Of a stretch of 64,000 nt of DNA, positions 45,913-51,189 are shown in pieces (position 1 is the first letter of the stretch; each line of letters begins with the position of its first letter). Under the pieces are notes generated by a model. The model saw nothing but the letters and a program-made list of their open reading frames with translations, was not told the origin of the DNA and made no database searches. Made by a program: the position numbers and the translations under genes. This DNA comes from Azoarcus sp. (GTDB lineage Bacteria > Pseudomonadota > Gammaproteobacteria > Burkholderiales > Rhodocyclaceae): contig JAUSOD010000049.1 in the NCBI GenBank assembly GCA_030656215.1, positions 1-64,000 on the forward strand. Direction: 5' to 3'.

Positions 45913-46884
45913 ATGTCTGACTTATTGAAGAACATAGATGCACGAACCCGGCTGGCCGGGACCAACAAGCTGGAGATCCTGCTGTTTACGCTGGGCATGG
46001 ATCAGCGTACCGGACGCCGGGAAACCTTCGGCATCAATGTGTTCAAGGTGCGTGAGGTGATGCGTACGCCCGGGATCACGGCGGCGCCGGACATGCCATC
46101 CTCGGTTGAGGGCATGGTGAGTCTGCGTGGGGTGCTGGTGCCGGTGGTCGATCTTGCAAAGTATGTCAACGTGGGAACCGATACCCCGCGCGAGATCATG
46201 ATCGTGACTGAATACAACGGTCATACTCAGGGTTTCCTGGTGGAGGCGGTGGATACCATCCTGCGTCTCGACTGGTCGCAGATGCGGGTGCCGCCCGAGA
46301 TGCTGACCGCCAACATGGGCGGTCTGGTAACTGCCGTGACCGAGTTGCCCGGCAACAAGCTGGTGATGATGCTCGACGTCGAGAAAGTGTTGTCCGAAAC
46401 CACGCGCTACGACGATAGCTTCATGTTCAAGGATATCGATCCGATTGACGATGGTAGTCGGCACACCGTGCTTTTTGCCGACGACTCGTCGGTGGCGCGC
46501 AAGCAGATCACCCAGACACTGGATGTACTGGGCGTGCGCTACATCGCAGCGATCAATGGTCGCCAGGCTTGGGAAGAGTTGAAGAAGCTCGCCAATCATG
46601 CCGAGAACTCCGGGCGCAAGGTGCGCGACATGCTCAGTCTGGTGCTGACCGACGTCGAGATGCCGGAGATGGACGGCTATATCCTGACCCGCAACATCAA
46701 GTCCGATCCGCGCTTCGAGGGCGTTCCAGTGGTCATGCATTCATCCCTTTCGGGCATGTCGAATCAGCAACTGGGCAAGTCGGTCGGCGTCGATGAATAC
46801 GTGCCCAAGTTCGAGCCGCAGCGTTTGTCCCAGACGCTGCGACGCCTGATGAGCGGCGACTCCAACACTGCTGACAAGAAATGA
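45913..46884 (+). CDS. cheV: Chemotaxis coupling protein CheV (first copy)
   Basis: A 323-residue CheV: a CheW-like domain (about residues 15-170: LEILLFTLG, FGINVFKVREVMRTPGI, LRGVLVPVVDLAKY) and a receiver (about 183-310: VLFADDSSVARKQ, phosphoacceptor in LTDVEMPEMDGY, VMHSSLSG, VPKFEP). CheV couples receptors to CheA and its receiver lets signalling be damped. Two copies in a row with no cheW nearby suggest they do the coupling here. Confidence 0.95.
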   Translation: MSDLLKNIDARTRLAGTNKLEILLFTLGMDQRTGRRETFGINVFKVREVMRTPGITAAPDMPSSVEGMVSLRGVLVPVVDLAKYVNVGTDTPREIMIVTEYNGHTQGFLVEAVDTILRLDWSQMRVPPEMLTANMGGLVTAVTELPGNKLVMMLDVEKVLSETTRYDDSFMFKDIDPIDDGSRHTVLFADDSSVARKQITQTLDVLGVRYIAAINGRQAWEELKKLANHAENSGRKVRDMLSLVLTDVEMPEMDGYILTRNIKSDPRFEGVPVVMHSSLSGMSNQQLGKSVGVDEYVPKFEPQRLSQTLRRLMSGDSNTADKK

Positions 46885-46893
46885 GGTGAGATC

Positions 46894-47850
46894 ATGCTGA
46901 GTCTTGATCAGAAAGATACGGCCTTGCTCGATGCGGTGGACGGCCGCACGATGCTGGCGGGTTCCAACCGGATGGAGATCCTGCTGTTTTCGCTGGGTAC
47001 CAGCGAGGTTTTCGGGATCAATGTGTTCAAGGTACGCGAGGTGTCAACGACCCCGTTCATCACCAAGGCACCCAATATGCCCAAGGGCGTCGAGGGGCTG
47101 ATTTCGCTACGGGGCAACGTCATCCCCGTGCTTTCGCTGGCCAAGATCCTCGGGCTGGACGGCTACGGCGATCCGTTGGGCGGCTCCATGATGGTGACCG
47201 AGTACAGCAAACGGACGCTGGGCTTCCTGGTCAATGAGGTGGACCGGATTATCCGCGTCGAGTGGGACAAGGTCCGCACGCCCGACAATGTCTCGCCGAG
47301 CATCCACAGTTTCATTACAGCGATCACCGAACTGTCCGATGGCAAGCTGGTGTCGATCCTGGATGTCGAGACCATCCTGTCCAACACTTTTGGTGAGGCG
47401 ATCGTCGGCAACATTGCACCCCTGCATGGGGGTGACGAGGTCAATGTCTTCTTCGTCGACGACTCGTCGGTGGCCCGACGCAAGATTGCCGAGGTGCTCG
47501 ATAAACTCGGTGTGCGCCACAAGCACGCGCAGAACGGGCTCGAGGCCTGGACGCGGCTCGAAGGCATGGCGGCACATGCACAGCAGATGGGACGTCAGGT
47601 AAACGACGAGATCGACCTCATCATGGTCGATGCCGAAATGCCGGAAATGGACGGCTATGTGCTGACGCGCAATATCAAGAACGACACCCGTTTCGATGGC
47701 ATCCCGGTGGTAATGCACTCCTCGCTGTCATCGGATGCGAATCGTGCGATGGGTAAACGGGTCGGAGTCGATTCTTACGTGGCAAAATTCGACGCTGATG
47801 TTCTCGCCGAAACCCTGCGTCCGCTGCTGCAGCGCGCGCGCCAGGGTTGA
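46894..47850 (+). CDS. cheV: Chemotaxis coupling protein CheV (second copy)
   Basis: A 318-residue CheV, clearly paralogous to the copy just upstream (NRMEILLFSLG, FGINVFKVREVSTTPFI, LRGNVIPVLSLAKI; receiver with VFFVDDSSVARRK, MVDAEMPEMDGY, VMHSSLSSDANRAMGK and VAKFDA). The two copies differ throughout, so the duplication is old. It follows by 9 bp and should be co-translated. Confidence 0.95.
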   Translation: MLSLDQKDTALLDAVDGRTMLAGSNRMEILLFSLGTSEVFGINVFKVREVSTTPFITKAPNMPKGVEGLISLRGNVIPVLSLAKILGLDGYGDPLGGSMMVTEYSKRTLGFLVNEVDRIIRVEWDKVRTPDNVSPSIHSFITAITELSDGKLVSILDVETILSNTFGEAIVGNIAPLHGGDEVNVFFVDDSSVARRKIAEVLDKLGVRHKHAQNGLEAWTRLEGMAAHAQQMGRQVNDEIDLIMVDAEMPEMDGYVLTRNIKNDTRFDGIPVVMHSSLSSDANRAMGKRVGVDSYVAKFDADVLAETLRPLLQRARQG

Positions 47851-47880: not shown

Positions 47881-48282
47881 ATGGGTGATGCAAAACTGAA
47901 ATTCCTGGTCGTCGATGATTTTTCGACCATGAGGCGCATCGTGCGCAATCTGCTCAAGGAGCTGGGCTACGTCAACGTTGAAGAGGCCGAGGACGGCGTC
48001 GCGGCGCTGCAGAAGCTCAATTCATCGCAGTTCGACTTTGTCGTGACCGACTGGAACATGCCGAACATGGATGGCCTGACCTTGCTGCAGACCATCCGGC
48101 GGACACCGCAGCTGAAGCATCTGCCGGTGCTGATGATTACGGCGGAGGCAAAGAAGGAAAACATCATTGCCGCTGCACAGGCAGGCGCCCATGGCTACAT
48201 CGTCAAGCCCTTCACCGCGGCGACGATGGCGGAAAAGCTGGAAAAAATCTTCGAACGGCTCAACAAGAGCACGGCCACCTGA
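47881..48282 (+). CDS. cheY: Chemotaxis response regulator CheY
   Basis: A 133-residue single receiver. Acidic residues in [14 protein letters not shown], phosphorylated Asp in [11 protein letters not shown], conserved Thr in MITAEA, Lys in VKPF, and the CheY-type [14 protein letters not shown] helix. Phospho-CheY binds the flagellar switch to change rotation. Preceded by GGAGAATGAG and placed between cheV and cheZ. Confidence 0.97.
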
Positions 48283-48317: not shown

Positions 48318-49199
48318 ATGGCGAAGCGGATGAAATTTGACGAAGAGAATGATTCGGATGAGCTCCAGGCACTGTTCGACAGCATCGCATCGACTCAGTC
48401 CGCGCCCGGGCCCCTTACTCAACGTCCGGCGCCGGTGCTCGCGCCCGCAGCGCAAGCCGACGATAGCGATGAGCTGCAGGCGCTGTTCGACTCGGTCGCG
48501 GCTGAGTTCGATGCGCCAGATGTCGTTGCAGCAGTTGCGGTAAGCCCGGTCCCGGTTGTCGTTGCCAGGCCGGTCGAGGAGCCCAAGTCGGAAAATGCCG
48601 ATGCGGTGTTTACCCGGATTGGGCAGATGACCCGTCAGGTGCACGACACCCTTCGGGAGCTGGGATTCGATAGCGCCATGCAGGAAATGGTCCAAGCCAT
48701 CCCTGATGCGCGTCAGCGGCTGACCTATATCGCGCAGATGACCGAACAGGCTGCAAGCCGGGTGTTGAATGCCACTGACATCGCCAAGCCGATCCAGGAC
48801 AAGGTGGAAGCCGATGCCGTGGTGCTGCGCGCGAAGTGGGAAAGACTTTACGCCAACGAGCTCTCGATCGAGGAGTTCAAGATCCTTGCCGGCGAAACGC
48901 GCGGTTTCCTCGGTGGCGTGGTCGACAGTAGCCGGGCGACCAATGCGCAGTTGCTCGAGATCATGATGGCGCAGGACTTTCAGGATTTGACCGGTCAGGT
49001 CATCAAGAAAGTGGTTGAAATGGCGCAGACGCTGGAAACACAGTTGCTGGAAGTGCTGATCGAGGTGGCGCCGGCCGCGGTGCGTACCGACATGAATGCC
49101 GGGCTGATGAATGGTCCGGTGGTAAATAGCGAGGGCCGCGACGACGTAGTCACAACCCAGGGGCAGGTCGACGACCTGCTCGAAAGCCTGGGTTTTTGA
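48318..49199 (+). CDS. cheZ: CheY phosphatase CheZ with duplicated N-terminal motif
   Basis: A 293-residue CheZ, much longer than the 214-residue E. coli protein. The conserved helical core includes the catalytic segment AQDFQDLTGQVIKKV (the Asp and Gln residues that act on phospho-CheY). The last residues, QVDDLLESLGF, match the CheY-binding C-terminal peptide. In addition, the N-terminal extension holds two identical copies of DSDELQALFDS (residues 12-22 and 49-59), and these resemble the C-terminal peptide in pattern. They are linked by Pro/Ala-rich sequence. Confidence 0.93.
   Translation: MAKRMKFDEENDSDELQALFDSIASTQSAPGPLTQRPAPVLAPAAQADDSDELQALFDSVAAEFDAPDVVAAVAVSPVPVVVARPVEEPKSENADAVFTRIGQMTRQVHDTLRELGFDSAMQEMVQAIPDARQRLTYIAQMTEQAASRVLNATDIAKPIQDKVEADAVVLRAKWERLYANELSIEEFKILAGETRGFLGGVVDSSRATNAQLLEIMMAQDFQDLTGQVIKKVVEMAQTLETQLLEVLIEVAPAAVRTDMNAGLMNGPVVNSEGRDDVVTTQGQVDDLLESLGF
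48351..48494 (+). repeat. Duplicated DSDELQALFDS coding motif in cheZ
   Basis: Copies at 48351-48383 and 48462-48494 encode the same 11 residues with four synonymous codon differences, including both serine codons switched between the TCN and AGY boxes. Protein identity with codon divergence indicates selection on the peptide. Confidence 0.85.
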
Positions 49200-49263: not shown

Positions 49264-51189
49264 ATGAGTGACTTTGGTGGAATGGAAGAACTGCTGCAGG
49301 ACTTCCTGATCGAGGCCGGAGACCTGTTGTCTGGCGTTGACAACAAGCTGGTCGATTTGGAGCGCTTCCCTGATGACAGGAACCTGCTCAACGAGATTTT
49401 TCGTGGATTTCACACCATCAAGGGCGGGGCGGGGTTTCTCAACGCCACCGAACTCGTGACCCTGTGCCACCTTACGGAAAACCTGTTCGACAAGTTGCGC
49501 AACGGCGAGCTCGCAGTAACGTCCGAGATGATGGATGTCATTCTCGAAGCGACCGGTTCGGTGCGGGAGATGTTCAATCATCTCGAGCATGGCAGTCAGC
49601 CACCGGCGGCGGATCCCGGCCTGATCACGGCGCTCAGGGTGGCAATTGCCGGCGAAGCGATTCCGCCGGTGACGCCCAAGGCTTCGGCACAGTCCACTCC
49701 CTTTACCGCTGGAAGTGGGGCGGGTGGCAAGGGCGCCGGAGGTGAGTCCGCGGCAGGGGCTCACGAGCCCGACTGGAACCTTCTTTACAGTGCCGTCGCG
49801 GTGGTGCCTGCCGCTCGAGTGGCAGAACCGATGGTGATCGAGCCTGCAGCGCCAATCGACGACCCCGACGAGGTCATTACCCGTGCGGTTGGCCGTCGAA
49901 CGGCGGATCGTCCGGGCGCGGCGGCGGCGGCGCCGACCGGCCGGCGTGAGGGCGAACGTCAGCGCGACAATTCGATCCGGGTCGATACTGCCCGCCTCGA
50001 TCAGGTGCTCAATTTGTCGGGCGAGATCGGGCTCACCAAGAACCGTCTCAATGCACTGCGCAGCGATATCCTGAGCGGTCGTAACGATACCGAAACCCTG
50101 CACGCGCTCGATCTGGCGGTCAGCCAGCTCGACCTGCTGGTATCCGATCTGCAGAACGCGGTGATGAAGACCCGCATGCAGCCGATCGGGCGTCTGTTCC
50201 AGAAATACCCCCGGATTGCCCGCGATCTGGCGCGGAATCTGGGCAAGGACGTCGAACTCGTGCTGGCCGGCGAGGAGACCGAGATCGACAAGACGATGAT
50301 CGAGGATCTTGCCGATCCGATCATCCACCTCATCCGCAATGCGGTCGATCATGGCGTCGAGAACGAGCAGGAGCGCCGTGCAAGCGGCAAGCCCGAGAAG
50401 TCGGCACTACGTCTTGAGGCGCGTCAGGAGGGCGATCATATCGTGATCCTGGTGGCTGACGACGGGCGCGGCATGAGTGCCGAGAAGTTGCGCGCCAAAG
50501 CCTTGCAGAAGGGCCTCATCACCGATGAAGAGGCCAACACCATGGACGAGCGGCAGAGCTTCAACCTGATTTTCCTGCCTGGCTTTTCACTTGCGGCCCA
50601 GGTTTCCGATGTGTCGGGCCGCGGTGTGGGAATGGACGTGGTCCGGACCAACATCCAGAAGCTCAACGGCTCGATCGAGATCCGCTCGACCCAGGGCAAG
50701 GGCACGACCTTCGTCATCAGTTTGCCGCTGACGCTGGCCATTCTGCCGGTGCTCCTCGTTCGCCTTGGGGATCAGCCCTTTGCAGTGCCCTTGTCGATGG
50801 TCCGCGAAATCCTGCCGATCGACGCGAAGGAAGTCCAGGAGGTCGGCGGCCGCGCAACGATGGTGGTGCGAGGCGAGGTGTTGCCCATCCTGCCGCTCGC
50901 GAACTTGCTGGGCTGGGATCAGGAGCGGGTCCCGGAGTATGGGGTGCTGATGCAGACCGCCGACCTGTCTTTCATCCTTGCGATCGACAGCTTTGCCGGG
51001 CGGGAGGACGCGGTGATCAAGTCACTCGACGATTTCCGGCCCAAGGGCGTGGCGGGGGTGACAACCCTGTCCAACGGCCAGATCGTTCTGATCCTGGACA
51101 TGAAAGAAGTGCTGGGGGCCGCCGGAGAGCAGCGCGGTGTGGCGCGATCGGCCTTGATGAGAAAGCCCCCGGTCCCGGCATTGGCCTGA
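49264..51189 (+). CDS. cheA: Chemotaxis histidine kinase CheA
   Basis: A 641-residue CheA. Hpt domain with phosphorylated His50 in FHTIKGGAGF; a 125-residue variable Ala/Pro/Gly-rich linker (about 110-235); the P3 dimerisation helices from DNSIRVDTARLDQVLNLSGE; P4 kinase with HLIRNAVDHGVE, VADDGRGM and GRGVGMDVV; P5 CheW-like regulatory domain to the end. No recognisable P2 (CheY/CheB docking) domain is seen between Hpt and P3. It is last in the cheV-cheV-cheY-cheZ-cheA operon. Confidence 0.94.
   Translation: MSDFGGMEELLQDFLIEAGDLLSGVDNKLVDLERFPDDRNLLNEIFRGFHTIKGGAGFLNATELVTLCHLTENLFDKLRNGELAVTSEMMDVILEATGSVREMFNHLEHGSQPPAADPGLITALRVAIAGEAIPPVTPKASAQSTPFTAGSGAGGKGAGGESAAGAHEPDWNLLYSAVAVVPAARVAEPMVIEPAAPIDDPDEVITRAVGRRTADRPGAAAAAPTGRREGERQRDNSIRVDTARLDQVLNLSGEIGLTKNRLNALRSDILSGRNDTETLHALDLAVSQLDLLVSDLQNAVMKTRMQPIGRLFQKYPRIARDLARNLGKDVELVLAGEETEIDKTMIEDLADPIIHLIRNAVDHGVENEQERRASGKPEKSALRLEARQEGDHIVILVADDGRGMSAEKLRAKALQKGLITDEEANTMDERQSFNLIFLPGFSLAAQVSDVSGRGVGMDVVRTNIQKLNGSIEIRSTQGKGTTFVISLPLTLAILPVLLVRLGDQPFAVPLSMVREILPIDAKEVQEVGGRATMVVRGEVLPILPLANLLGWDQERVPEYGVLMQTADLSFILAIDSFAGREDAVIKSLDDFRPKGVAGVTTLSNGQIVLILDMKEVLGAAGEQRGVARSALMRKPPVPALA

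Follow-up and report, generated by a model that had tools for sequence, protein, structure and literature searches.

The closest described counterparts of the peptides considered here come from the flagellar motor, from CheZ itself and from CheA. The EIDALL helix of FliM binds phosphorylated CheY (CheY-P) in a groove formed by helices alpha4 and alpha5 (PMC9126983, PMC6700473); the peptide, LSQxEIDALL (structure 1f4v), belongs to a FliM N-terminus that is reportedly disordered until CheY-P binds (PMC6700473). The main CheY-P affinity of CheZ resides in its C-terminal helix, and a model of CheZ oligomers bridged by CheY-P via the C-terminal tether puts the tethered peptides on one dimer and the active sites on another (PMC1447658). 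The DxxxQ and AXXFQ motifs of CheZ are named in PMC7750401. A known CheY-docking element of the pathway is the P2 domain of CheA (PF09078), which is a folded domain, unlike the motifs described below. We found no report of these N-terminal CheZ motifs in the open-licence literature, a partial source and hence weak evidence of absence.

The window, by which we mean the whole stretch of 64,000 nucleotides analysed here, from Azoarcus sp. (family Rhodocyclaceae, order Burkholderiales), contains a chemotaxis locus with the gene order receptor, cheV, cheV, cheY, cheZ, cheA. The features discussed are as follows.

45913..46884, forward strand: first cheV (CheW plus receiver)
46894..47850, forward strand: second cheV (CheW plus receiver)
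47881..48282, forward strand: cheY, the presumed partner, with an alpha4-beta5-alpha5 face close to that of the 2fka CheY chain
48318..49199, forward strand: cheZ, 293 aa, phosphatase core from about residue 96 and catalytic DLTGQ from residue 223
48318..48602, forward strand: residues 1-95 of CheZ, an N-terminal tail that the Pfam CheZ model does not cover
48351..48389, forward strand: motif N1, DSDELQALFDS (residues 12-22, 48351-48383) plus IA to residue 24, FliM-like
48462..48500, forward strand: motif N2, DSDELQALFDS (residues 49-59, 48462-48494) plus VA to residue 61, FliM-like
49161..49196, forward strand: CheZ C-terminal peptide GQVDDLLESLGF, residues 282-293, by alignment to 1kmi chain Z the putative counterpart of the known CheY-binding peptide in that CheZ
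49264..51189, forward strand: cheA, with Hpt, dimerisation, ATPase and CheW-like domains and a linker containing EPDWNLLYSAV

The CheZ of this locus exceeds the curated cut-offs of both PF04344 (250.3 bits against 30.7) and NF008368 (311.6 against 257), carries the catalytic DxxxQ as DLTGQ, and has AQDFQ preceding it, which fits the AXXFQ motif; among the listed matches with a name, its nearest relative is CheZ from Azoarcus sp. L1K30, at 73% identity. The Pfam match spans residues 96-293 and the NCBIfam match residues 86-293, so that both copies of the N-terminal motif lie outside the known domain. The protein ends in QGQVDDLLESLGF, as a sequence-only reading of this DNA had given it, and as this stretch aligns to SQDQVDDLLDSLGF of 1kmi chain Z the C-terminal CheY-binding peptide is, judged by sequence, present; it is also kept in relatives. 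The same reading had pointed to the two occurrences of DSDELQALFDS, and these indeed have the same amino acids, with differences at four of their 11 codons, all synonymous (S13/S50 TCG/AGC, L16/L53 CTC/CTG, A18/A55 GCA/GCG and S22/S59 AGC/TCG). At each of the two serines one copy uses TCG and the other AGC, a change of codon box which suggests that the duplication is old and has been kept by selection. At the DNA level the repeat amounts to 24 nt at 92% identity. Chance is ruled out as a source of the protein identity, since shuffling residues 1-95 of CheZ 1000 times gave, at best, an internal 11-residue match with 7 identities against the 11 observed.

The two motifs resemble the N-terminal peptide of FliM. 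The FliM of this genome begins MSSDFLSQEEVDALLRGVSGE, and the peptides fall into a common register: EE-VDALLRGVSG in FliM, DE-LQALFDSIAS in N1, DE-LQALFDSVAA in N2 and GQ-VDDLLESLGF at the CheZ C-terminus. With a weight matrix built solely from 14 distinct FliM N-termini (from 25 FliM genes), N2 scores 11.6, N1 9.5 and the C-terminal peptide 3.5, everything else in CheZ scoring 2.8 or less. The background comprised 60,975 segments from open frames of at least 100 residues in the window, genuine genes or not, with cheZ excluded; no segment reaches the score of N2, four reach that of N1 and 242 that of the C-terminal peptide. By that measure the N-terminal motif is nearer to the FliM peptide than the CheZ C-terminal peptide is. 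In the reverse direction, a matrix of the N-terminal motifs ranks the FliM N-terminal site first in 15 of the 25 FliM proteins and second in the other 10. By a matrix of CheZ C-termini, N1 and N2 score only weakly, with 56 and 62 background segments respectively scoring as well, and another CheZ stretch, from residue 106 on, ranks above both. A matrix comparison with another cut of the peptides gave a similar outcome. The likeness to FliM is looser elsewhere than in the window's CheZ, as among 210 distinct N-terminal motifs 32% have at most 10 background segments as good by the FliM matrix, and 60% at most 60.

The earlier description of the repeat as a CheY-binding-like peptide likened to the CheZ C-terminus thus stands in part: by sequence the motifs do look like a CheY-docking peptide, and the closest such peptide is the FliM N-terminus. 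Likeness to the CheZ C-terminus, being the weaker of the two by matrix scoring, was dropped as the chief argument. N1 and N2 fit the sequence pattern of the EIDALL helix by the FliM-only matrix, sharing with the FliM peptide the acidic pair, hydrophobic, x, A, L, hydrophobic and turn, as well as a disordered tail and a helix-forming character. Unlike that peptide, they sit in CheZ rather than the motor, occur in tandem, and have F for the second L and DS for KG or RG after the helix; the LSQ ahead of the helix is absent from both, NDSDE and DDSDE standing in its place, and for this reason we call the motifs FliM-like and not a FliM peptide. With the CheZ C-terminal peptide of 1kmi they share register, protein and flexible tether, and differ from it in lying at the opposite end of the chain and in lacking the terminal LGF. 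A PDB sequence search with the N1 stretch returned no match.

We favour, as fairly probable, an explanation in which N1 and N2 serve as additional docking peptides for CheY, with a preference for CheY-P. As short helix-forming peptides they would bind CheY at the alpha4-beta5-alpha5 groove, the one used by the FliM N-terminus and by CheZ's own C-terminal peptide, and they would hang on flexible Ala/Pro-rich tethers. Together with the C-terminal peptide there would be three docking peptides per CheZ chain, where the oligomer model of PMC1447658 has one tether, and six per dimer around two active sites. The predicted effects are a higher local concentration of CheY-P, competition with FliM, and bridging of CheZ dimers by CheY-P. 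The analysis establishes the motifs, how widely they occur, the constraint on them, their likeness to FliM and the intact face of CheY; binding of CheY, preference for its phosphorylated form and an effect on dephosphorylation are what we infer.

The motifs might instead anchor CheZ at the cell pole or the receptor array through a protein other than CheY, such as CheA, a CheW-like protein of the ParP kind or a polar hub. In favour of this, the long N-terminal helical region of Azorhizobium CheZ suffices for polar localisation without CheA (PMC7750401), and the LID region of Vibrio CheA binds ParP (PMC5706961, PMC7534058). Anchoring predicts neither the likeness to FliM in both directions of the matrix comparison nor the placement of the motifs in a protein that has CheY as its known substrate, however, and we consider it rather unlikely.

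Structure prediction bears on a role within CheZ itself. At 26 distinct motif-bearing loci cheY and cheZ share a reading frame and are separated by just one stop, and a CheY-linker-tail chain was obtained as a read-through of this natural stop; AlphaFold was run on one such locus of a relative (L013) with the 26-row alignment. In this chain helices are predicted over the motifs at 156-170 and 194-207, with block pLDDT of 73 for N1 and 63 for N2, whereas in free CheZ of the same locus the helices are at 10-23 and 48-63, with 74 for N1, 75 for N2 and 82 for the C-terminal helix. Modelling CheY with the N-terminal motifs, as the sequence-only reading had proposed, thus brought no rise in confidence as judged by pLDDT, and AlphaFold gives no support for docking; it was rejected as proof of it. 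A structure comparison of the CheY-tail model matched the CheY part alone. What the free CheZ model does support is a pair of short helices within a tail otherwise predicted with low confidence: the motifs are predicted as isolated helices with pLDDT of about 75 between stretches below 50, in keeping with a peptide that becomes folded when it binds. Amphipathic helices that share their pattern with the C-terminal peptide could in principle pack on the core, or mimic that peptide inhibitorily, and so act inside CheZ. Against such an internal role, long low-confidence linkers part both helices from the core in this model of a relative, and copy number across the surveyed CheZ proteins ranges from none to four; we judge it improbable.

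Docking of CheY is compatible with the state of the presumed partner. We take 18 positions of CheY as its presumed peptide-binding face. In an alignment of the window's CheY with the 2fka CheY chain, which covers 128 residues and was read by eye, 16 of these 18 positions are the same, and the two changes, I107/V and M116/L, are conservative. The best CheY match at each of the 140 motif-bearing loci keeps A90, I95, A99, Y106, V108, F111 and K119 without exception. The face is equally intact at 21 motif-less loci, with one A90S, so that it permits docking and does not discriminate between loci with and without the motif. The two adjacent cheV genes in this one gene cluster encode receivers that are strongly unlike CheY at the presumed output face. 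Their presence in the cluster speaks for an earlier suggestion that the N-terminal copies recruit another receiver, CheV; both CheV receivers, however, retain only 3 of the 18 CheY residues at the presumed face, and we hold such recruitment to be very unlikely.

To follow the motif in other genomes we surveyed one CheZ per genome in 191 genomes, leaving aside the second CheZ copies of a few, and counted motifs that scored above the best background score of a weight matrix; this matrix was trained on the motifs themselves, and borderline rows (for example L248 and L251) are counted as one copy. The sample of the window's family was non-random, consisting of 80 of 129 matching genomes (the top 30 by score and a manual selection of others) plus two more; all 80 matching genomes from other families of the order were covered, and the best-scoring 29 of 43 from other orders of the class. 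The sequence-only reading had made its case depend on conservation in related CheZ proteins, and the motif is kept there: it is present in 81 of 82 CheZ from the window's family (none in 1, one copy in 3, two in 74, three in 4) and in 59 of the 80 that belong to the order's other families (none in 21, one in 52, two in 4, three in 3), or 140 of 162 in the order, across 30 family groups. It was found in none of the best-scoring 29 of 43 genomes from other orders. The CheZ of L118 really has four copies, its matrix count of three arising because the scan ended at 150 residues. Its family group (f49), which is separate from the window's family, has CheZ tails with four copies (L118, G235) and with at least three (L221, G267). 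Among the named relatives, a looser pattern finds at least one copy in all 69 that could be parsed of the 80 listed, the other 11 being unrecognised by the pattern and hence uncounted; named carriers include Azoarcus, Aromatoleum, Thauera, Zoogloea, Dechloromonas and one Nitrosomonadales genome. In the window's own genome the pattern [DE][LF]xA[LF]F[DE] occurs at 8 places, two of them in CheZ; five of the six others have a long frame with the pattern, and none looks like CheV, CheA or FliM.

The two positions in the tail are old and distinct, as in the two-copy CheZ of the window's family the residue after DS is I in the first copy in 72 of 74 proteins and V in the second in 63 of 74. On a CheZ core tree of 138 rows, drawn by a quick method and with many weak branches, the order's motif-less proteins fall among motif-bearing ones, and the minimum number of changes is 6 for motif presence and 19 for copy number. 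Ala makes up 27% and Pro 21% of the linkers that separate copies; copies are spaced by 27-64 residues in the window's family (median 35), and the last copy stands 27-61 residues before the core in CheZ with at least two copies. Five genomes of the same genus, compared in ten pairs, differ non-synonymously at a fraction of 0.069 of motif codons, 0.502 of codons in the remaining tail and 0.150 of core codons, whereas at codons for the same residue synonymous change is similar throughout (0.463, 0.399 and 0.417, respectively); the motif is constrained at the protein level while the surrounding tail drifts. That the motifs are a chance or drifting repeat in an acidic low-complexity tail with no specific role, as the drift of the Ala/Pro-rich linker around them might suggest, is scarcely credible given their presence in 30 family groups and this codon pattern.

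Unexpectedly, motifs of this kind are also found in CheA. When the N-motif matrix was run over 4370 other open frames at the loci, 55 hits exceeded a score of 12; several top hits are in CheA, the gene next to cheZ, of genomes from other orders, and the rest are scattered, two of them in CheB-looking frames. The CheA linkers of the other orders have two to four tandem EI[ST]DDEFEALLDELHG-like motifs in 29 of 29 genomes (L143-L171). Counted as EF[ED]x[LIM][LMV][DN], they number three in 15 genomes, two in 11 and four in 3, with a spacing of mostly 30-50 residues, and this pattern is present in none of 55 CheA beside motif-bearing betaproteobacterial CheZ. FliM-matrix hits of 8 or more occur at least once in 27 of 27 sufficiently long CheA of other orders and at least twice in 24 of 27; the corresponding numbers for betaproteobacterial CheA are 9 and 1 of 55, so that the latter are not wholly free of look-alikes. 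A PDB sequence search with the CheA-linker stretch returned no match. These FliM-like repeats may belong to the LID region known from Vibrio, or may stand in for P2. A PDWxxLY site is present in 34 of 55 betaproteobacterial CheA linkers, including that of the window (EPDWNLLYSAV), and in 0 of 27 CheA of other orders; it may represent a docking motif that has diverged while keeping this register.

The P2 domain offers a second comparison. PF07194, another P2 model, was set aside as the wrong one, having been silent in an E. coli control and in all 80 genomes (0/80), and PF09078 was used instead; it has no match in the window's own genome, and none is listed for the window's CheA. The search covered genomes of the order only, namely the 80 from other families and 80 of the 82 from the window's family (all but G056 and G059). 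Among the other families of the order, PF09078 matches over its cut-off in 13 of 21 motif-less genomes versus 0 of 59 motif-bearing ones (Fisher 6e-10), an association at genome level in which the P2 match is not tied to the CheA working with that CheZ, and which on the tree comes down to 2 to 5 independent pairs (sign test, p = 1). Of the 13, G172 exceeds the cut-off only when its neighbours in the frame are included, and motif-bearing G268 and motif-less G183 fall just below it. In the window's family PF09078 is present in the lone motif-less genome, G052 (63.8 bits), and weakly over the cut-off in 2 of 79 motif-bearing genomes (G053, G077). Motif-less CheZ tends to occur in genomes with a P2-type CheA, an association that is backed by few independent events and is probably one of operon types. 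The motif-less CheZ of G052 (L016 / L314) groups with P2-bearing rows on the tree, and the chemotaxis genes of this genome were perhaps replaced by transfer.

A wider reading, which we offer tentatively, is that where CheA has no folded P2 a reiterated FliM-like array for docking CheY would be carried elsewhere, in the CheA linker (two to four copies) in gammaproteobacterial orders outside this one and in the CheZ N-terminal tail (one to four copies) in betaproteobacteria, and would have been lost where P2-type CheA took over. CheZ might then be a multivalent trap for CheY-P, with a valence tuned by copy number that sets the sharpness of signal clearing. As all the parts are short peptides, tests of these proposals would be simple. 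If the proposals are true, the single CheY-binding peptide that textbooks give each CheZ chain would be a special case, and the range of copy number from none to four would be a natural series relating docking valence to signal shut-off. The question of how a P2-less CheA meets CheY would likewise have a testable answer, namely linear FliM-like motifs in the CheA linker.
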